37,621 nucleotides of DNA from Desulfobulbaceae bacterium. Its GTDB lineage: Bacteria > Desulfobacterota > Desulfobulbia > Desulfobulbales > Desulfocapsaceae. The DNA is taken from assembly GCA_026988015.1 (NCBI GenBank), contig JALSMA010000068.1, positions 1 to 37,621 on the forward strand, given 5' to 3'. The notes under the pieces were generated by a model. That model saw nothing but the letters and a program-made list of their open reading frames with translations, ran no database searches and was not told the origin of the DNA. A program made the position numbers and the translations under genes. Below, in pieces: positions 19,794 to 33,052 of this stretch; within the stretch, counting starts at the first letter, position 1, and each line of letters opens with the position of its first letter.

Positions 19794-22166
19794 TTACTGA
19801 ATACTGACAATGTTTTTTACGGTTTTGGAAGGGATGGTTTCGTTGAATAAAACATGAACCGAATAATCACTCTCCACATAACGCTGCAAACGAACCGCAA
19901 CTATTACCCCCTGACATTCAAAGGTGCCACCTGTACCATCTTCCAGGATGGTTTTAATACCACGGCCCAGCAGCAATCTGGCATTTTCTTTCCGGGAAAT
20001 TTTTATATAAAATGAGAACCCACCTTCAGAAAAATCAACTATCTCTCCGTTAAAACTTCTCATGCTCGGATTTCCATATTCATCCAGCAAGGTATGTTTC
20101 ACAAGAATAGTTACAGGAAATCGTGGATATTGGCGGCGATCCTCTCCTGACATTTCAAGGAGTTCAGGGATTTTTTCACTTTTCTCACAATACTTCAGCA
20201 GGCACGATTCAAGACCCGGGTACTGATCCAGTAATTCAAGAAATTTCTTTCTTTCAAGAACATGGATATTTGTCTTTCCTATGGCAGTGAGGGTAACTGT
20301 CCAGACGGAGACATCAAAAAACGGTACCGTACCGACAATGTCCCCAGGGCCAATTTTTTTTAAGAATATCTCATTCTTGCCTCTCCAGCAGGTCAATCTG
20401 GCCTGACCAGAATTAATAAAATAGAGAAAGGGATTGTTCGTTCCCTGTTCAACTATAATTGAACCGGACGTGTAATTTTTGGACTTTAAAATGTAGTAGA
20501 GTGCATTGAATTCGTCAGTGGTCAATGTACCATAAAGATCCTGCCAGATCGTCAGGTGATTGGAAGAAATAGAAGAATTTCGCTCCTCCTCTATACACTC
20601 ACCTGCTTTAATCACCTCTGCCAGGGCATTGGGATCAACTTCAAGTATTCTGTCCCTCAACATTTCAGCGACATCAAAATTTTTATCTTTTGCTGCCTCC
20701 ACACATTCTTCATAGAGGAGTTGGCCGGCTTCTGTGATTTTGCCTTTTCCAAGAAGAGCTGTCACCTCATCATTGATTTTCTGGACAACTCTCTTTGCAG
20801 GATCTCGGGTAGCAGGATCACCAACAAAGGAAACATCTTTTTCCAGTGGTTCTACAAATTCAACTTCCGGTTCTTCTGGTAGCTCATCTCTGGTGAATCT
20901 GGGTTTTAAAATTTGCAGACTCTGTATAACCACCTGAGAGACTGGATCATTCTCACGGTCAGGGTGATTACTTCTCTCTTCCAGGATCATTGTGAGCAGA
21001 TTTACAGCGCGAATGGAATTGCTCAGGCGTACCTGAACAGCAAGCACCTGCAGCAGGTCATCACAAACTTTAGGTGAGTAATTGTCACGCAGTGCAAGAA
21101 GATCCAGGAAAGCTTCTGTTGTTTCTATTCCTCCTAATTGTCCGAGATAGCGAACAAGTCCTACCTTCAGTTCGTCATTTACCAGTGGCAGGGCTGCCAA
21201 AAGATATCTTCCGGGATTGTCAGTTGCGACTTCTGTGATACAGTCAATAACCTGCTGCTGAATTCTGATGTCTTCGTGTTCAAGACAGGGCATGATAAGG
21301 GGGATGAGTTCGGGGTCATCCATTGCAGTTATCATTAGGATGATATTGCGAATTCCATACCAGGGTAGGTTTTTCTGGAGATACTCTTTCAGTACAGAAA
21401 CTGCTGCATACCCGGTAGCGGGAATGAGCCCTATAAGGCGAAGCCTATCCGCTTTTTCCTGACAGGAAAGGAGTGTATCAAGAAGGTGAATGGCAGCTTT
21501 TCTACCAAGGTGGATCAGAATTCGTTCGGCATTTTGTCTTCTTTCGCCACGGCCCCGGAGACAGACAATAGTTAACTCTTCAAGGATATAACTGGTGGCT
21601 ATTTCTTCCTGAGCACGACTCACCACACTGCGAATTGCATTACTCTTCTCATTGATCCCGGATTGTATTTGATAAAACACTTCAAGGAGATAGTCGCATT
21701 CCTTCCAAAGCCCCTCTTCCAGCATACGAATACCGTGCTTTTGCAGCTGTTTACAGACAGTACCGCAAACTGACAGGAAAATGGTTTCAGCACGGAGCCA
21801 TCGAAGCAATATCCCGGTAATAAGTTCAATAAGATCAGGATGTTCTTTTTTGTGCAACCCACTCATACAGAGACTTAAGGCCATCACCGCACGCTCTCTG
21901 AGCCTGGAGTCTTCACTGCATGCACACTCACCAAGATTTTCAAACAGTACCTTCACTCTGTCTCTATTGCCTGACTCACAGTAGGTAGAGATAATACCAG
22001 GAAGGTTCTCCATGAGTTCATCATTCAGCAAAACCTCACTACGCCCAATCTCAAGGTCATTAACAAGCTTAAACAATCGACGCTCAGCGCGCTGCTGCTC
22101 TTCCTGCAACAGGAGTTTCCTGGCTTTCTCCTGAGCCTCCTTTTGTTTATCAATATTAATTTCCAT
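19794..22166 (-). CDS. HEAT-repeat protein with cyclic-nucleotide-binding-like and PilZ domains
   Basis: 790 residues, no signal peptide, so cytosolic. An N-terminal basic/coiled segment (about 5-50) is followed by alpha-helical HEAT-like repeats (about 60-440, for example EDIRIQQQVIDCITEVATDNPGR). A cNMP-binding fold occupies about 540-655 (YTSGSIIVEQGTNNPFLYFINSG...). Its phosphate-binding cassette reads GTVPFFDVSVWTVTLTA and lacks the Glu and Arg that hold cAMP phosphate. The C-terminal PilZ domain (about 676-790) has both c-di-GMP motifs, RQYPR (RxxxR) and DFSEGG (DxSxxG). It is probably a c-di-GMP effector with a scaffold role; the target is unknown. First gene of the dus/phasin group. 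Confidence 0.85.
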   Translation of the reverse strand: MEINIDKQKEAQEKARKLLLQEEQQRAERRLFKLVNDLEIGRSEVLLNDELMENLPGIISTYCESGNRDRVKVLFENLGECACSEDSRLRERAVMALSLCMSGLHKKEHPDLIELITGILLRWLRAETIFLSVCGTVCKQLQKHGIRMLEEGLWKECDYLLEVFYQIQSGINEKSNAIRSVVSRAQEEIATSYILEELTIVCLRGRGERRQNAERILIHLGRKAAIHLLDTLLSCQEKADRLRLIGLIPATGYAAVSVLKEYLQKNLPWYGIRNIILMITAMDDPELIPLIMPCLEHEDIRIQQQVIDCITEVATDNPGRYLLAALPLVNDELKVGLVRYLGQLGGIETTEAFLDLLALRDNYSPKVCDDLLQVLAVQVRLSNSIRAVNLLTMILEERSNHPDRENDPVSQVVIQSLQILKPRFTRDELPEEPEVEFVEPLEKDVSFVGDPATRDPAKRVVQKINDEVTALLGKGKITEAGQLLYEECVEAAKDKNFDVAEMLRDRILEVDPNALAEVIKAGECIEEERNSSISSNHLTIWQDLYGTLTTDEFNALYYILKSKNYTSGSIIVEQGTNNPFLYFINSGQARLTCWRGKNEIFLKKIGPGDIVGTVPFFDVSVWTVTLTAIGKTNIHVLERKKFLELLDQYPGLESCLLKYCEKSEKIPELLEMSGEDRRQYPRFPVTILVKHTLLDEYGNPSMRSFNGEIVDFSEGGFSFYIKISRKENARLLLGRGIKTILEDGTGGTFECQGVIVAVRLQRYVESDYSVHVLFNETIPSKTVKNIVSIQ

Positions 22167-26052: not shown

Positions 26053-27615
26053 TCATGGAAGAGACACTTGGTCCGCTTGGATAGAATAAAATTTCACAGC
26101 ATGCTCCACTCCTCGTAACTCTCTGGTATCTCCCTCTTTCACCGGAAAACTTCCCCTCATGTCCTTGTAAACAGAGTCTGTTATCAAAATTTGACCGGAC
26201 TCTGTGGATGCCGCCAGCCGTTGTGCAATATTGACATCTGTTCCAATTACTGTGTAATCAAGTCTCCTTGAAGAACCCACATTTCCATGAAACATCTCTC
26301 CTCTGCTTATTCCAATCCCCAGTCCGAGCTGCTTGAAAATCGATGATTTCTGCAACCACTTACAACGTAATTCTTCAAATCCCTGTGAAAGTTCCACAGC
26401 TGTACAGATAGCAGCTTCTGATGGTTTTTCAAGCTCTATGGGGGCACCAAAAGCAACAAGAGCTGCATCCCCCATAAATTTATCCAGGGTTCCTTTCCAG
26501 GAAAAGGCCACCTCGGAGAACAGATCAAAAAACTGGGTCAGGAAGAGATGGATGTCTTCATGGGACAGGTGCTGAACAGCAAGAGTAAAGTTGCGAATAT
26601 CAGCAAATAGTACACTGATCTCTCTCACCCCACCAATATCCATGATGTCTTTGCCTGAACTAAGCAGTATTTCAGCTACTTCTGGTGCAACATACTGTTC
26701 GAAAAGCGCCTTGGTACGAATGTTTTGTTCACGCTCCTCCATATAAATGACATTTTCAAGAGCCATGACTGCCTGGCCGCAAATAACAGAAAGCATTTCA
26801 ATATCTGATTGACTGTAAACAACTTCCCTGGCAGTTTGACTGATATTCAAGACTCCCAGTACTTTTTCACGCCCTATCAGGGGAAAAGATATGGAGGCTG
26901 TAATTTCATCACGCTGTAAATGCTCTGCGAGTGGTGACTGTGCTTGAGTCTGCTTGTTTAAAATAACCGGTTCCCCGTGTTCATAGACCCAACCGGCAAT
27001 CTTCTCACCGGATTTTATGGCAACATCCGCCGCTACGCTCTCAGCGATTCCCCTTGAGGCAACAACATGGAGACAGCTATCTTCCTCAACAAACATCATA
27101 AGAGAAATTGTGGGAACATCAATCTGAACCCCGATAGCCTCAAGAAGAAGTTCATACACCTCATGTAATGAGGTGGCAGCAATAAATTTTTCACTGAGTT
27201 TATAGAGTGGCAGGATAGTTTTAAGGCGGGTACGTTCCTCCTGAAGTGCTGCAGCACTTAACGCCTGATGAACCGCATCCACTAGCTCAGAGGCATTCAG
27301 CGGTTTATTAAGAACAGCACTTAATCCACTGTTCATGGCATTTACGACCATATCTTTATCAATATAGCCCGACACCAAAATGCCAATAACCCCGGGATAT
27401 GTCTGCCTGATCATATCAAAAGTTTCCGCCCCGGTCATTCCGGGCAGCATGGCCTCGACAATGATAAGGTCAAACTGGGTGCGCAGTGCCATTTCAATGG
27501 CCTGTTCTCCACTATAGGCGCTGAAGACCTCATAACCATGATCACCGAGAGCAATACGACCCATGTCGACAATAAGTGCCTCGTCATCAATAATTAAAAT
27601 CTTTTGAAGGGCCAT
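26053..27615 (-). CDS. Receiver-GAF-class III adenylate cyclase
   Basis: 520 residues, cytosolic. Residues 1-120 form a response-regulator receiver with Asp10/Asp11 and Lys104, but Glu54 (IIVEAMLPG) stands where the phosphorylated Asp should be. A GAF domain fills about 145-290. The cyclase domain (about 330-515) is complete: metal ligands Asp339 (FADIR) and Asp383 (MGDA), purine-selecting Lys379 and Thr455 (DYTVIG), and transition-state Asn462 and Arg466. Lys/Thr at the purine positions favours ATP, hence cAMP. No kinase is adjacent. With Glu54 the receiver may act as permanently 'on' or as a dimerisation module; the GAF ligand then becomes the likely input. Confidence 0.92.
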   Translation of the reverse strand: MALQKILIIDDEALIVDMGRIALGDHGYEVFSAYSGEQAIEMALRTQFDLIIVEAMLPGMTGAETFDMIRQTYPGVIGILVSGYIDKDMVVNAMNSGLSAVLNKPLNASELVDAVHQALSAAALQEERTRLKTILPLYKLSEKFIAATSLHEVYELLLEAIGVQIDVPTISLMMFVEEDSCLHVVASRGIAESVAADVAIKSGEKIAGWVYEHGEPVILNKQTQAQSPLAEHLQRDEITASISFPLIGREKVLGVLNISQTAREVVYSQSDIEMLSVICGQAVMALENVIYMEEREQNIRTKALFEQYVAPEVAEILLSSGKDIMDIGGVREISVLFADIRNFTLAVQHLSHEDIHLFLTQFFDLFSEVAFSWKGTLDKFMGDAALVAFGAPIELEKPSEAAICTAVELSQGFEELRCKWLQKSSIFKQLGLGIGISRGEMFHGNVGSSRRLDYTVIGTDVNIAQRLAASTESGQILITDSVYKDMRGSFPVKEGDTRELRGVEHAVKFYSIQADQVSLP

Positions 27616-27898
27616 GAATAACTAAACTCTTGGTTCTAATTTATTATGCAGCCAGCAATTGAGAAAAGATATCACTAATAGTAATTTCAATAAATGATAC
27701 CATCAGCGACAAAAGCTTTCAAGGAAAAGGCCCAAGGATTTTTAATATTTACACCATAATGTTTAAATAGCGTAACACACCAAAAATTAAATTTAATTCA
27801 ATAAAATTTTATTCCCTTCATTACTTGCAATCTCTTTACAGAATGGAGTATTGATATATTTCGATGAAATTTTTCCCTCTTTTGGTATACAACTGTTT

Positions 27899-29230
27899 AT
27901 GGCCATAAAAACCCAAAAACCTCTTGCAGAACGGATGCGCCCGCAAAAGATTGATCAAATTGTGGGCCAGCAGAATATTCTTGGTAAGGGGAAGCTCCTT
28001 GACAGCACGCTTGGTACCGGATCATTGCCTTCCCTGATCCTCTGGGGTCCGCCTGGAACTGGCAAGACCACCCTTGCAAGAATCCTTGCAAAATCAACCA
28101 CTGCCGACTTTGTCTACTTCTCAGCAGTTCTCTCCGGAGTCAGGGAGGTTCGTAAGAATGTCGACCGTGCCAGAAAACTCCAGAAAAGCGAACAACGGGG
28201 GACCATCTTTTTCATAGATGAAATCCACAGATTTAATAAAAGTCAACAGGATGCGCTTCTTCCCCATGTTGAGAGTGGCCTTTTTACGCTTATTGGTGCG
28301 ACAACGGAAAATCCTTCCTTTGAGATCATATCCCCTCTTCTTTCAAGATGCCGGGTGCTGGTTCTCTCTTCATTGGCAACCGAGGATTTGAGCACTATTT
28401 TGCAACGTGCCCTCACTGACCACGACAATGGGCTGGGGTCACATGGTCTCTTATTTGGAGAAAACAGCCTTGATGCGTTGTGTGATTTAGCTGATGGTGA
28501 CGCAAGGCGCGGACTCAACATCCTTGAGATTTCAGCATCCCTGGTTATGCACCGCATCAAGAGCCGTCCCGACAATCCTGCAACTATCACTGTGGACGAT
28601 ATAAGAGAAGCTACTCAACAATCAGTCCTTAAATATGATAAAAACGGAGACGAACACTACAATCTCATTTCTGCCCTCCATAAGAGCCTTCGCGATTCAG
28701 ACCCTGACGGCAGCCTTTACTGGCTCTACAGAATGCTTAAGGCGGGAGAAGACCCTCTGTACCTCTGCAGGAGGCTCATTCGGTTTGCCTCTGAAGATAT
28801 CGGTTTATCGGATCCCCAGGCCCTTATCCACACTCTTTCCTGCAGAGATGCTTACCACACCCTTGGACTCCCAGAGGGGAAGCTGGCTCTGGCACAGGCA
28901 GTCTGTTATCTTGCAACCGCTCCAAAGAGTCACAGTCTCTACAGAGCAGAATCGGAGGTTCGTCGCTGTATTACAAAAACCGGGTCACTTGAGGTTCCCC
29001 TACACCTGCGTAACGCCCCTACCAAACTTATGAAAGACCTTCATTACGGCAAAGGCTATCAATACGCCCACGAAGCAGAGAATGCCCTGGTTGCTCAAGA
29101 TCACCTTCCCGGTGAAATCAGGTCACAGCAGTTTTACTTTCCAAGTACCCGCGGCTATGAGGCTCTTGTTAAGGAACGGCTGGAAAAATGGAAAATAATC
29201 CTTCAAAAGAGGACTGATAATGCTCAATAA
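27899..29230 (+). CDS. rarA: Replication-associated recombination protein A (RarA/MgsA)
   Basis: 443 residues from the ATG at 27899; earlier in-frame codons from a TTG at 27851 have GGAG too close to serve. AAA+ ATPase of the clamp-loader group: PLAERMRPQKIDQIVGQQ at the start, Walker A WGPPGTGKTT, Walker B FFIDEIHRFNKSQQDALL, sensor 1 IGATTENPSFE, then the C-terminal tetramerisation domain (YDKNGDEHYNLISALHKSLRDSDPD, RRLIRFASEDIGL). It acts at stalled forks with RecA. Its last 11 bases overlap the start of the selenoprotein gene, so the two are probably cotranscribed and coupled, an unexpected pairing. Confidence 0.95.
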   Translation: MAIKTQKPLAERMRPQKIDQIVGQQNILGKGKLLDSTLGTGSLPSLILWGPPGTGKTTLARILAKSTTADFVYFSAVLSGVREVRKNVDRARKLQKSEQRGTIFFIDEIHRFNKSQQDALLPHVESGLFTLIGATTENPSFEIISPLLSRCRVLVLSSLATEDLSTILQRALTDHDNGLGSHGLLFGENSLDALCDLADGDARRGLNILEISASLVMHRIKSRPDNPATITVDDIREATQQSVLKYDKNGDEHYNLISALHKSLRDSDPDGSLYWLYRMLKAGEDPLYLCRRLIRFASEDIGLSDPQALIHTLSCRDAYHTLGLPEGKLALAQAVCYLATAPKSHSLYRAESEVRRCITKTGSLEVPLHLRNAPTKLMKDLHYGKGYQYAHEAENALVAQDHLPGEIRSQQFYFPSTRGYEALVKERLEKWKIILQKRTDNAQ

Positions 29231-30839
29231 AACACGTCACTCACACCTCCTGTTCAGCCTGTTTTTTCTTACGGTCTTCATCTTCAATATTGGTATCCCT
29301 GCGCCCGGATTCGCAAACCAGAGTAGCGCCATTCGCATATTCTACTCAGGAAATGTCAAAGGGGAAACAGAACCCTGTGGCTGAAGCTCAAAGCAACTGG
29401 GCGGTCTGTCCAAAAAAGTCTTTCAAATCAAAGCTCTTTCCAGAGATGGAAAGAGAGGAAAAATCCTCCTTGATGCAGGCAATCTCCTGTTCAAGCAAAC
29501 GCGAATTAACCACGGAAAAAGCCAGGACAAGCTCGCGGCAACGACTATCATTGATATATACCGGGATCTTAACTATGACGCAGTAGGTGTCGGACCCCTT
29601 GACCTTGCTGCTGGAGCTGCATTTATCAAACCCAGTCTGAACCAGGGGTTTCCATGGATATCCGCCAACATAACAGACAAGAATGGTTCCCCAGTTTTTA
29701 GGCAGTTCACCCACAAAAAAGCAGGGTCCACTGAAATTATAATTACTGCAATCACAGCACCTCCAGGAAGAATTTTCAAAGATATTGAGGTACTCCCTTG
29801 GGAATCCGTTCTTCCTGAACTCTTCAAACGGATAAACGCAACAAAGAAGAATAAATTTCTTATTCTTCTTTCTACGTACTCCAATGAAGAAAATATCAGA
29901 ATTGCAAGATTTTTCCCCGAAATCAGCCTGATCATCGGAGCTGACAGGCGCAAGGGGAACATCTCTCCCCAGCAGTATGACAATTGCCTCATTACCCAAA
30001 CAGCAAAGCAGGGCAAATACCAGGGTGTGTTAGACATAAATCTTGGTACTACCCGCAAATGGGGCATAGAGAATGATGAAGAACTGGCCAACCTTCAAAA
30101 CAGACTCGGTTCGCTCAACTGGCAGCTCAGCAGACTTGAGAAAAAAGAACAGCACGGAGAAAAAGAAAAAAACCGCCTTAAAGCCATAATACGTCTTCAG
30201 AAAGAAAAACAGGAACTGCATCAGCAGCTGTCTGCTCTACAGGAGACAATGGAAGAAGAAAAAAGATCAGGAACCAGAAACGATCATTTCAGCAACCGCT
30301 TCATTGCACTGGCCAAGAACCTGCCCAACGACCAGGCAACAAGAGTTAAAATAGGAGACCTCAACGAGGCAATACGAGCCCTTAACAGGAAGGCAAAGAA
30401 AACAGCAGGAAAATCACCTGACACATCCATAACTTCCCTGTCCTACGATATTGCAGGATCTGGGGTGTGTGAGACATGCCACCCTGCTCAGACAGAATTC
30501 TGGAAAAACACCAGACATGCTGCGGCATATGAGACTCTGGTTGCCAAGAGGAAGAATTTTGACCTTTCCTGCCTTGCATGTCACCTCACCCTCAATCTGC
30601 AAAACGCCACAATGGCTACCATGCAACAAACAAGTCTGCTGGCATTCCCTTCTGACTTACAGTCCGTTGGCTGTGAAACCTGTCATGGAGCAGGAAAAAA
30701 GCATAGCACCAGGCCTCAACAGTACCGTCTGGCAAAGAACCCAGGAAAGGAGGTCTGTCTCACTTGTCATACTAAGGAGCATGACAACAATTTTGATTAT
30801 GATAGAAAACTGCAGCTGATAAGCTGCCCTGCCGGTTAA
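29220..30839 (+). CDS. UshA-like tetrahaem selenoprotein with in-frame UGA (Sec55)
   Basis: The frame from the ATG at 29220 runs 540 codons with one internal stop, TGA at 29382-29384 (codon 55). I read it as selenocysteine: coding quality is continuous on both sides, a SECIS-like hairpin follows, and Sec falls in a conserved-looking P52-C53-G54-U55 motif with GGL soon after. Residues 1-32 are a signal peptide (hydrophobic 10-26, cleavage near GFA). Residues 36-275 resemble the UshA/5'-nucleotidase metallophosphatase fold (YDAVGVGPLDLAAG, SANIT, LILLSTYSNEE, LIIGADRR). Residues 282-350 form a coiled coil. The C-terminus has four CxxCH haem sites at 417, 451, 485 and 513. It should be periplasmic and redox active; the substrate is unknown. 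A frameshift or pseudogene is unlikely because no other defect exists. Confidence 0.9.
29382..29412 (+). promoter_or_regulatory. UGA selenocysteine codon and bacterial SECIS hairpin
   Basis: The UGA (29382-29384) is followed after 18 bases by a hairpin: UGGGC (29398-29402), loop GGUCU (29403-29407), GUCCA (29408-29412), five base pairs. Outer pairing AAAG/CUUU is possible. From memory, E. coli fdhF has the same 18-base spacing from its UGA to the same GGUCU core, which SelB recognises. selA, selB and selC are not in this window. Confidence 0.82.
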
Positions 30840-30865: not shown

Positions 30866-31939
30866 TTAAGTGTCCAAAAACGCAGTCAAGAGAGGGTGTA
30901 GCACCTTTCTTGACAAGGCTTCGTTGGCCTGACCATATATTCTGACACTTCCGTTTGGATCGATTTTCCATAAATCACCACGCAGAAGAGACAGACCGAA
31001 GCCTTTTTCCTGAAGAACTGTAAAAAGGCTATCCTGAGCATTGTCATCATCCCAGACGACTATCATTTCTCTGCGAAAATGTGGTTGGGTTGTGACCAAC
31101 ATAAGCACAAGAAATTCCAGATTCCTGTCTCTTTGATATTCTTTCAAGGTCTTTAAAATGTTTACATCCCTTTCGTGCAGACTGGCGCTATCCAGGCAAA
31201 CCACAGCAACACCATATCGTATTTTCCCTATCTGATATTCTTTATAATCCCTACGCAGCAGATCAACAACCGTCATGCCATTAATATCATGTCGTTTCAT
31301 CTGCAATATTTTAAACAAACGTTTTCCGTCAATTTCACATATTGCCGTTAGAACAGATGCCATAGCATTATCTGCTGCCGTGGCTTTTTTAGATCGTTGC
31401 GACAGATTCAGGGTATCTAGGAGTATGGCGGCTAGCAGTAGACAGGCAACATCTTTATCGATAAAAGCCCTCTCCCTAACAAATTCCTGGGCCACCAGGG
31501 TCGCAGTAGAGCCAACCTGCTGTATAATTCTTGGGGAAACTGTCTGAAAAAGACCACTATCATCATGATGATCTATAATTCCGGTAACCTTGGCAGAATA
31601 CGGGTCTAAGGATAACCCTGGCTGATTGTGGTCAATGAGTACCAGACTGAAGTTTTCAGGGAACTCATCAAAAAGGACATCATCAATAAAAAGGAGATCA
31701 TCAGGCATGATACCTGTTTTCAGCAACAGGTATGATATCTCTTTGCGCAGGGGAAAATCACAGCGAAAACAATTTACAACAGGGATGGCTGGAATGTCAT
31801 GGTGGGTCGTACTCAGATATGCATAGCAAAGTGATGATACAGTGGAATCAAGATCCGCAGCTTCGTTACCTATAACTAAAATCTGAAAAGTCCCTGTCCT
31901 TTCTTTCAACGACGCGACATAGTCTCGAAACGAAAGCAT
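30866..31939 (-). CDS. DHH-DHHA2 phosphoesterase (prune/PPX1-like)
   Basis: 357 residues from the ATG at 31939; an upstream ATG at 31972 is possible, and neither has a well-placed ribosome-binding site. DHH motifs: GNEAADLDSTVSS (DxD), VLIDHNQ and the signature IDHHDD. The C-terminal DHHA2 domain (about 225-355) has FLVLMLVTTQPHFRREM and VRIYGQANEALSRKVLHPLL. The 'GNEA.DLDS' opening resembles prune and PPX1 exopolyphosphatases more than family II pyrophosphatases ('GH.NPDTDS'), so short-chain polyphosphatase activity is a reasonable guess. It converges on the selenoprotein gene and lies downstream of ppaC, with a terminator between them. Confidence 0.85.
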   Translation of the reverse strand: MLSFRDYVASLKERTGTFQILVIGNEAADLDSTVSSLCYAYLSTTHHDIPAIPVVNCFRCDFPLRKEISYLLLKTGIMPDDLLFIDDVLFDEFPENFSLVLIDHNQPGLSLDPYSAKVTGIIDHHDDSGLFQTVSPRIIQQVGSTATLVAQEFVRERAFIDKDVACLLLAAILLDTLNLSQRSKKATAADNAMASVLTAICEIDGKRLFKILQMKRHDINGMTVVDLLRRDYKEYQIGKIRYGVAVVCLDSASLHERDVNILKTLKEYQRDRNLEFLVLMLVTTQPHFRREMIVVWDDDNAQDSLFTVLQEKGFGLSLLRGDLWKIDPNGSVRIYGQANEALSRKVLHPLLTAFLDT

Positions 31940-32041
31940 GAATAATAAAGTCCCCTCAGCCTGACCCGGCATCACTTGAATAATGGAAGTTTATGTAAAA
32001 ATCTCTTAAGCAAAGAGCCAGCCAAAAACATCTTTATAAAA

Positions 32042-32122: not shown

Positions 32123-33052
32123 CTAGCAGCCAAAAGCTTTCTGAAGATCTGGAACAACCTGTTTTTTACGACTCATCATACCATCAACCCACATGGAGGT
32201 TCCATCAATTTTTCCACCGAAAGCACCTTCGATAAGAGCTTCATCGTCGGAAACGACAACCAACTCTGTTCCTTCTTTCACAACATCGGTGAGCATTAAA
32301 AGTACGGTATGGCGACCATCAGCTTTAACTTCCCTAGCAGCAGCAAGGAGGTCATCACGGATGGCAGCAACTTGGTCAAGAGTGGCAAGCTCAAGCTGAC
32401 CTACACCTACTTTCTTTCCGTTCATATCAAAATCTTTGTAGTCACGGAAGAGGAGGTCTTTTGCAGGAACACCATCAACTGAGGATTTTGCCTTGAGCAT
32501 ATCCATAAAAAGTACTTCGGTATCGTCAACACCGGCAATCACTTTCAGTTCTGCAACGGCAGCTTTGTCCTCATCGGTACAGGTCGGAGATTTAAAATTA
32601 ACGGTATCGGAGAGGATCGCGGAAAGCATACCACCAGCGACATCCTTAGGAACAGCAACACCCGCGTCTTTAAACATCTTGTTCAAAACAGTTCCGGTAC
32701 AGCCAACTGGTTCAACACGAACAAGAATAGGCTGATTGGTAGTTACATCACCAACTTTATGATGATCAACGATGGTCACAACTTCAGCATCAGTAATGTT
32801 TGCAGGAGCCTGACCAATATCACTGAAATCCACAAGAGCAACAGTCTTACCGGCAGCATCCATCATCTCTTCAGGAGCAGTAAGACCAAAACGCTCAAGA
32901 ACTACTGTTGATTCCGGATTGAGGTCACTAAGGGATGACTGCATACATGCCTTGGCATCCTGGCCCTGGGCATTTAGAAGAGCTGCAAGCCCGATGGCTG
33001 CAGTTACTGAGTCGGTATCAGGATTTGAGTGGCCTGTTACGTGAATTGTCAT
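32123..33052 (-). CDS. ppaC: Manganese-dependent inorganic pyrophosphatase (family II)
   Basis: 309 residues, full length. Hydrolyses PPi to phosphate. Active-site segments: GHSNPDTDSV (His8, Asp12, Asp14), LVDFSD (Asp75), IVDHHKVGD (Asp96, His97, His98) and the C-terminal SRKKQ near 294-298 that grips phosphate. The final domain is DHHA2. No CBS/DRTGG regulatory insert is present, so it should be constitutively active. In sulfate reducers such an enzyme pulls ATP sulfurylase forward by removing PPi, which would fit the inferred lineage. The ATG at 33052 is preceded by GGAGGAAAACACC. A strong terminator follows. Confidence 0.96.
   Translation of the reverse strand: MTIHVTGHSNPDTDSVTAAIGLAALLNAQGQDAKACMQSSLSDLNPESTVVLERFGLTAPEEMMDAAGKTVALVDFSDIGQAPANITDAEVVTIVDHHKVGDVTTNQPILVRVEPVGCTGTVLNKMFKDAGVAVPKDVAGGMLSAILSDTVNFKSPTCTDEDKAAVAELKVIAGVDDTEVLFMDMLKAKSSVDGVPAKDLLFRDYKDFDMNGKKVGVGQLELATLDQVAAIRDDLLAAAREVKADGRHTVLLMLTDVVKEGTELVVVSDDEALIEGAFGGKIDGTSMWVDGMMSRKKQVVPDLQKAFGC

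Follow-up and report, generated by a model that had tools for sequence, protein, structure and literature searches.

A UGA-interrupted gene of a Desulfobulbaceae bacterium predicted to encode an UshA-like selenoprotein with a tetrahaem module and a putative redox function

The locus described here raises the question of whether a long frame broken by a single UGA is a truncated gene or a selenoprotein gene and, if the latter, what its product might do. The frame lies in DNA of a Desulfobulbaceae bacterium (GenBank assembly GCA_026988015.1, contig JALSMA010000068.1), and the whole stretch analysed, 37,621 nucleotides, is called the window. It runs on the forward strand from an ATG at 29220 to a TAA ending at 30839, and its sole internal in-frame stop is a TGA at 29382-29384 (codon 55). 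An initial annotation had read this UGA as selenocysteine (Sec), giving the triplet C53-G54-U55, and had called the product a missed selenoprotein. The selenoprotein stands, but as a member of the known family NF041198 and not as the founder of a new one. With a rough probability of 0.6, we read the product as an exported NF041198 selenoprotein in which a dead nucleotidase fold carries a Cys-Gly-Sec redox site and the haems are wired to quinol-linked cytochromes.

Decoding of codon 55

Direct reading of the frame finds it as first annotated, with codon 55 as the only break, and the predicted product has 539 residues (540 codons counting the stop). The 484 codons 3′ of the TGA would stay open by chance with a probability of about 5e-12 on base composition alone. 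The hydrophobic N-terminus, the segment GNVKGETEPCGU and, after the UGA, SSKQLGGL are directly visible in the translation. Beyond the TGA, no ATG, GTG or TTG stands in frame before 30027, which means that residues 56-269 could not arise by re-initiation at a common start. In the family alignment the protein is conserved on both sides of the TGA; nonsynonymous divergence (dN), at 0.32-0.77 in the nucleotidase part and the haem part, adds weakly to this, synonymous divergence (dS) being saturated or undefined. In that comparison L102 is absent, and a hairpin behind an upstream TGA of L099 is disregarded.

UGA codon 55 is almost certainly decoded as selenocysteine, to judge from the Sec genes of the genome, the residues that homologues carry at this position and the folding of the RNA behind it. 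The genome was expected to encode the Sec machinery, and its assembly contains selA (597 bits), selB (375), selD (374) and tRNA-Sec (76), each over its curated cut-off; among 14 control genomes, matches over the cut-off numbered 1, 2, 2 and 5, respectively. The selD gene of this genome (L051, G000:C17:37204-38145) contains one in-frame TGA and probably encodes a selenoprotein itself.

The Pro52-Cys53-Gly54-Sec55 motif (29373-29384, forward strand) was followed through a 50-row alignment. Sec occupies position 55 in 30 rows, Cys in 17 and Arg in one, and two rows have a gap there; homologues were predicted to align Sec or Cys here, and 47 of the 48 rows having a residue do so. Position 53 is Cys in 42 rows, Glu in three, Ser in one and Gly in one, with three gaps. 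These rows are not a random sample: they comprise the window, its nearest named relative (L009, from a Deltaproteobacteria metagenome bin), 29 best-match loci of the family search and 19 mostly TGA-free matches, and exclude two duplicates (L021, identical to the window, and L071, a repeat of L027). Among the 17 Cys rows, seven carry a plain CGC motif; the other ten, with CxxC-like or GCGC motifs, come from divergent paralogues whose loop alignment is less certain. One family copy (L027:34-1512, genome G111) reads PSGR instead of PCGU and keeps four haem motifs.

Within the window's genus, eight of 11 genomes searched (the window's own counted) have an NF041198 match over the cut-off, and seven of these eight, that is six besides the window's, have one TGA within the match. 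The eighth match (G404:C240:1640-3159) belongs to a gene broken, by assembly error or frameshift, into two pieces in different frames, and the TGA lies in the piece outside the match. Genomes G398, G399 and G402, with completeness of 99%, 78% and 85%, gave no match over the cut-off. Recurrence of the same TGA in six further genomes of this genus, or seven with the split copy, makes a sequencing error, named at the outset as a possible refutation, untenable.

A hairpin resembling a selenocysteine insertion sequence (SECIS) element lies at 29398-29412 (forward strand), 18 nt past the UGA, with a 5-bp stem (29398-29402 paired with 29408-29412) and the loop GGUCU (29403-29407). The loop may resemble that of the E. 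coli fdhF SECIS, a likeness on which no argument here depends. The bacterial SECIS model drawn in Fig. 2A of PMC13188914 has a loop of 3-9 nt with G in the first two places, a stem of 4-16 bp, a distance of 16-37 nt from the UGA and a minimum free energy of at most -7.5 kcal/mol. By the rules of that figure the loop (5 nt), stem (5 bp) and spacing (18 nt) of the window hairpin conform. Taken singly, the hairpin speaks against Sec decoding: its energy of -6.8 kcal/mol (over 51 or 41 nt) falls short of the -7.5 limit, its shuffle z-score of -0.07 is not significant, and 16% of synonymous variants fold equally well. Over 64 nt the energy reaches -8.1 kcal/mol, but via an additional, unrelated hairpin. 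Rfam at gathering cut-offs returned no match in the whole window.

Comparison across the family, in contrast to the single hairpin, separates Sec rows from Cys rows. The null kept the protein fixed and drew synonymous codons, with energies taken over 24 nt for Sec rows, and covered 47 of the 50 rows (L009 and L070, with gaps, and L027, with Arg, were omitted). All 30 Sec rows fold below the synonymous null mean (-8.73 vs -4.23 kcal/mol), 13 of them in the best 5% of variants. Only three of the 17 Cys rows do so (-3.49 vs -4.18 kcal/mol; one of 17 in the best 5%), among them one of the seven plain CGC rows; of the Cys rows, L068 folds well (fraction 0.005). By the Mann-Whitney test the two groups differ (p 1.5e-7), and the Wilcoxon test gives p 9e-10 for the Sec rows, with the proviso that related rows are not independent. 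By this comparison, something other than the LGGL protein motif preserves the hairpin, and does so only together with the UGA.

The hairpin occurs in two registers, to which rows were assigned after folding, so that the pairing percentages are favoured. In register 1 (10 rows) 95% of cells are paired, and the covariation score was reached by 90 of 500 shuffles. In register 2 (20 rows) 93% of cells are paired, a level reached by none of 500 shuffles, and the covariation score was reached by 158 of 500. The register-1 structure imposed on register-2 rows pairs 38% of cells. Covariation is thus not clear of shuffles in either register, a further point on the negative side.

A catalogued family that includes the haems

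The predicted protein matches NF041198 (UshA_like_PCGU, an equivalog named 'UshA-like (seleno)protein') with 499.2 bits against a cut-off of 275, over profile positions 5-518 of 519. It is, by this match, a member of a selenoprotein family already catalogued, as the initial annotation had suspected for the N-terminal part. Since the profile spans the whole chain, the haem module belongs to the curated family, and the further claim that the tetrahaem fusion lies outside any described family does not hold. The window protein shares the PCGU motif, coiled coil and haem module at full length, and we found no difference that excludes membership; it has Asn for the Asp of the DxH motif, like four other rows of 25, and its locus is rarA-linked, a trait common to its order. 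Four CxxCH motifs are present in 26 of the 29 other best-match family-search loci. A phylum-wide search of 395 genomes gave 69 over the NF041198 cut-off among the matches listed; a looser tally (323 of 395 at an expectation value E of 0.001) was left unused, as nine of the 14 controls match at that level too, none of them over the cut-off. The viral contigs scanned contained no relatives, and plasmids gave no match.

Tables in two reviews, PMC13188914 (which gives the accession) and PMC9312934, list the family as a CxU selenoprotein, and the C53-G54-U55 motif agrees. A third review, PMC7435645, includes 'COG0737 UshA' among predicted selenoproteins, and a 2008 ocean survey lists 'COG0737, UshA-like, CxU' and describes it as one of three major-family exceptions without a conserved Cys-based redox motif (PMC2398784). 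This COG0737 selenoprotein is probably the NF041198 family. In the literature searched, the accession NF041198 occurs only in PMC13188914, and the accessible parts of the reviews, the survey and later papers assign the family no function. Haems go unmentioned in the titles and abstract openings returned by literature searches pairing selenoproteins or UshA with cytochromes; as far as such searches reach into the texts, the haem fusion is unreported in print.

A second family, NF049981 (UshA-like (seleno)protein family 2), has the same type of N-domain with Sec near the N-terminus. It matches residues 39-128 of the window protein with 34 bits, below its cut-off of 140, and the motif given for it in one of these reviews is CxxU, not CxU. 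It is rare in the phylum (one of 59 genomes over the cut-off).

The layout of the protein begins with a signal-peptide-like N-terminus (residues 1-33, 29220-29318, forward strand; MLNKTRH, a hydrophobic core, then GFANQ), recognised by eye as it had been originally, by which export is predicted. A coiled coil follows the N-domain (residues about 278-349, 30051-30266, forward strand), within the NF041198 match. Single-sequence AlphaFold2 gave a poor model overall (mean predicted local distance difference test, pLDDT, 39.9), with an N-terminal helix of moderate confidence (61-76) and, at about 278-349, two long paired helices whose block means reach 85-94 in residues 291-340; the coiled coil that had been noticed by inspection corresponds to this pair.

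The tetrahaem module (30459-30785, forward strand) holds the four CxxCH motifs noticed earlier, starting at residues 417, 451, 485 and 513, which fall in Pfam Cytochrome_C554 (47 bits) and Paired_CXXCH_1. By motif and domain it is a c554-like module, with haem attachment predicted. Six His and no others are invariant across those rows, 23 of 25, that have four CxxCH: the four motif His, His433 and His495. This leaves two of the four haems without an extra His conserved throughout. Tetrahaem cytochrome c554 (1bvb) can be aligned with the module over part of the c554 chain only, and the module differs in being fused to another domain and in the two haems lacking a conserved extra His; its alignment with hydroxylamine oxidoreductase is weak. 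Stand-alone open frames of 163-198 aa matching only the haem part (profile about 395-519) occur in genomes G145, G396, G401, G406 and G408. Haem-less and tetrahaem UshA-like genes stand in tandem at L082:7142-9464, at L130:4343-6676 and around 4757-6900 of L135, the haem copy of the last being taken from the phylum-wide family search.

A nucleotidase fold without its metal site

The N-domain (residues about 36-280, 29325-30059, forward strand) was compared with known structures by means of a 25-member family profile, which matched the Protein Data Bank entries 3ivd (E 1.1e-30), UshA 1ush (3.6e-20) and SoxB 2wdc (5.2e-16), as well as 4uwq. Homology to 5′-nucleotidases and UshA (3ivd, 1ush, CD73) thus bears out the nucleotidase-like fold that had been proposed. 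The function implied by that name does not follow. At the metal-ligand sites D, H, D, N, H, H, H and H, placed on the 3ivd alignment from the established 5′-nucleotidase ligands (DxH, GD, GNHE, His, GHxH), the window protein has N45, K47, N88, P126, L127, T219, D242 and R244, and so keeps none of the eight. Counted site by site, 19, 2, 5, 0, 0, 5, 6 and 1 of the 25 family members have the ligand letter. With the ligands lost, 'nucleotidase-like' is not to be read as a function. UshA carries a C-terminal domain of its own; in the window protein the coiled coil and tetrahaem module take the place of the nucleotidase C-terminal domain.

Two specific identities are not supported. The absence of all eight ligands from the predicted sequence tells against an active metallophosphoesterase of the 5′-nucleotidase type, and a score of 22.2 bits, under the TIGR04486 cut-off of 550, tells against SoxB.

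What the family has kept is different. Invariant in the 25 members are G48, C53, G54, Sec/Cys55, G61, G62, D85, G87, D128, G132 and L217. Within residues 20-399, columns 53 and 55 are the only ones with Cys or Sec in 25 of 25 rows, the next-best Cys columns being 28 and 211 with six of 25 each. As aligned, Cys53 and Sec55 are the only conserved thiol and selenol of the N-domain. The most fitting description of this domain is a former hydrolase in which the conserved feature is now the Cys-Gly-Sec loop, placed immediately behind the one-time DxH strand. The loss of metal ligands, the sole Cys/Sec pair and the multihaem neighbours found in other genomes are the observations new in this analysis.

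Multihaem neighbours in other genomes

A 16-haem protein with an NrfH/NapC-type N-terminus is encoded in 54 of the 395 phylum genomes at E 1e-40. Among the matches listed, 37 of these 54 also have an NF041198-type match, 28 have both genes on one contig, and 25, from eight family-level groups, have them within 5 kb; the remaining three pairs are 7 kb, 22 kb and 1.9 Mb apart. All 25 close-pair genomes are over the NF041198 cut-off, and each of their family genes has one TGA. The link had first emerged from 20 loci picked for their diversity before their neighbours were known; simple gene calling, which misses some genes, shows either or both of two cytochrome genes, the 16-haem one and a 9-haem one, in five of them. 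The 9-haem protein has a b561/formate-dehydrogenase-gamma-like domain, and its gene is present in 12 of 23 loci, all of which had been selected for already having one of the two cytochrome genes.

The 9-haem neighbour shares the architecture given for CbcL in PMC6295460, nine CxxCH motifs plus a b-type domain. The 16-haem neighbour resembles NrfH/NapC-anchored cytochromes such as ImcH/NapC in architecture and has more haems than the 6-10 that the same source gives for ImcH homologues. Both likenesses concern neighbours in other genomes and not the selenoprotein itself. A cassette of the 9-haem plus b-type membrane protein, the UshA-like selenoprotein and the 16-haem cytochrome recurs at L075 (4988-6958 and 9793-11991) and in L081, L082, L130, L134, L140, L141 and L143-L145, with varying gene orientation. 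The diversity loci also include an aldehyde ferredoxin oxidoreductase-like neighbour in three of 20 (L073, L074 and L077) and an ArsP-type permease in two of 20 (L077 and L083); Pfam was run on one member per neighbour cluster, which for ArsP was L083, L077 belonging to the same cluster.

A candidate redox mechanism and its alternatives

Loss of the metal site, a lone Cys/Sec pair, the haems and the quinol-cytochrome neighbours together lead to a testable hypothesis, that of a membrane-linked electron-transfer selenoenzyme. The Cys-Gly-Sec loop, right after the former metal-binding strand, would be the redox active site and would cycle between selenol/thiol and selenenylsulfide, or a substrate-bound selenenyl form. 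The four haems would pass electrons singly between this site and other cytochromes. The circuit would lead from the quinol pool through a membrane multihaem cytochrome and the tetrahaem module to Cys-Gly-Sec and a periplasmic substrate, both the direction and the substrate being hypothetical. Going by gene neighbourhood, we put such a quinol-linked periplasmic reductase at even odds. The two haems for which no distal His is conserved could offer open sites and act together with the Cys-Gly-Sec domain. More tentatively, and at somewhat less than even odds, NF041198 may be an unrecognised class of respiratory selenoenzyme, in which a metal-less nucleotidase fold has become a Cys-Gly-Sec domain that is tetrahaem-linked to quinol-oxidising cytochromes and reduces its substrate at selenium in the periplasm. 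If true, this would be a new kind of reaction centre in the respiration of these bacteria.

Several observations weigh against this reading. The AlphaFold2 model, poor overall, does not link Sec to haem, and the L027 copy lacks both Cys and Sec. Neither multihaem partner was found by simple gene calling in 15 of the 20 diversity loci. The partner cassette is not next to the window gene, and in the window's genome no 16-haem match reaches E 1e-40, the sole hit being weak and N-terminal (E 1.3e-6); its CbcL-like matches sit on other contigs. The circuit is therefore carried over to the window by homology, and the window's genome must use other electron partners.

Three relatives, L029 and L032 of the window's family and L037, also tell against it, having the Sec motif and no haem motif in the gene; a six-frame scan found no haem motif in L029, one in L032 and two in L037, scattered. 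Haems are accordingly not needed for every member, and the Sec domain appears able to work without haems on the same chain. In a 55-row N-domain tree, the window belongs to a clade from its order (100/98) whose 18 rows all have Sec except L054, which has Cys, and L029 and L032 stand beside its genus with support of 96/97, the bootstrap being not fully settled. From these positions, both a Sec-to-Cys change and haem loss probably occurred near the window's lineage.

The electron flow could also be reversed, with the Sec site oxidising a periplasmic reduced sulfur or thiol compound and electrons leaving through the haems toward quinone. Fold kinship with SoxB, by the weak NCBIfam match (22 bits) and the profile matches to 2wdc and 4uwq, is in its favour, but that match is far under the cut-off, SoxB is a metal hydrolase, and the window protein has lost the metal ligands. 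NrfH/NapC-type proteins are, moreover, classically quinol-oxidising. We consider an oxidase unlikely, even though CbcL-type proteins are suggested in PMC6295460 to work in both directions.

Slightly less likely still is a role in metal or metalloid handling, in which Cys-Gly-Sec would chelate a soft metal (Hg, Cu or As) and the haems would reduce it or be accessory. Two conserved soft ligands spaced CxU would suit such a site, and the ArsP-type permease gene lies near the family gene at two loci. Against this, those are two of 20, the N-domain has no further conserved Cys, and quinol-type cytochromes are the commoner neighbours (five of 20 loci, and 25 genomes among the matches listed). The proposal that the TGA is a real stop, arising from an error, a pseudogene or a short secreted peptide followed by a re-initiated haem protein, is highly improbable: in-frame TGA is a stop by default and the window's own hairpin is weak, but the same TGA recurs in 30 of 50 aligned rows and in six other genus genomes (seven with G404), the protein is conserved on both sides of it, no common in-frame start precedes 30027, and the genome has the complete Sec machinery.

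Neighbouring genes in the window

Upstream of the selenoprotein gene and on the same strand, a rarA/mgsA-type AAA ATPase gene (27851-29230) overlaps its start by 11 nt, so that the two genes may be co-translated. Of 49 loci, many having a flank of only 1-1.5 kb, 10 show this pairing, namely L009 and nine from the same order or family; it says little about the function of the selenoprotein. On the reverse strand downstream, a divergent DHH/DHHA2 paralogue (30866-31975; 120 bits, below the cut-off of 283) lies beside a regular manganese-dependent pyrophosphatase (32123-33052; 387 bits). Two further reverse-strand genes encode predicted fusions, a response regulator-GAF-adenylate/guanylate cyclase (26053-27615) and a HEAT-cNMP-binding-PilZ protein (19794-22166), hinting at cyclic-nucleotide signalling near the selenoprotein locus.

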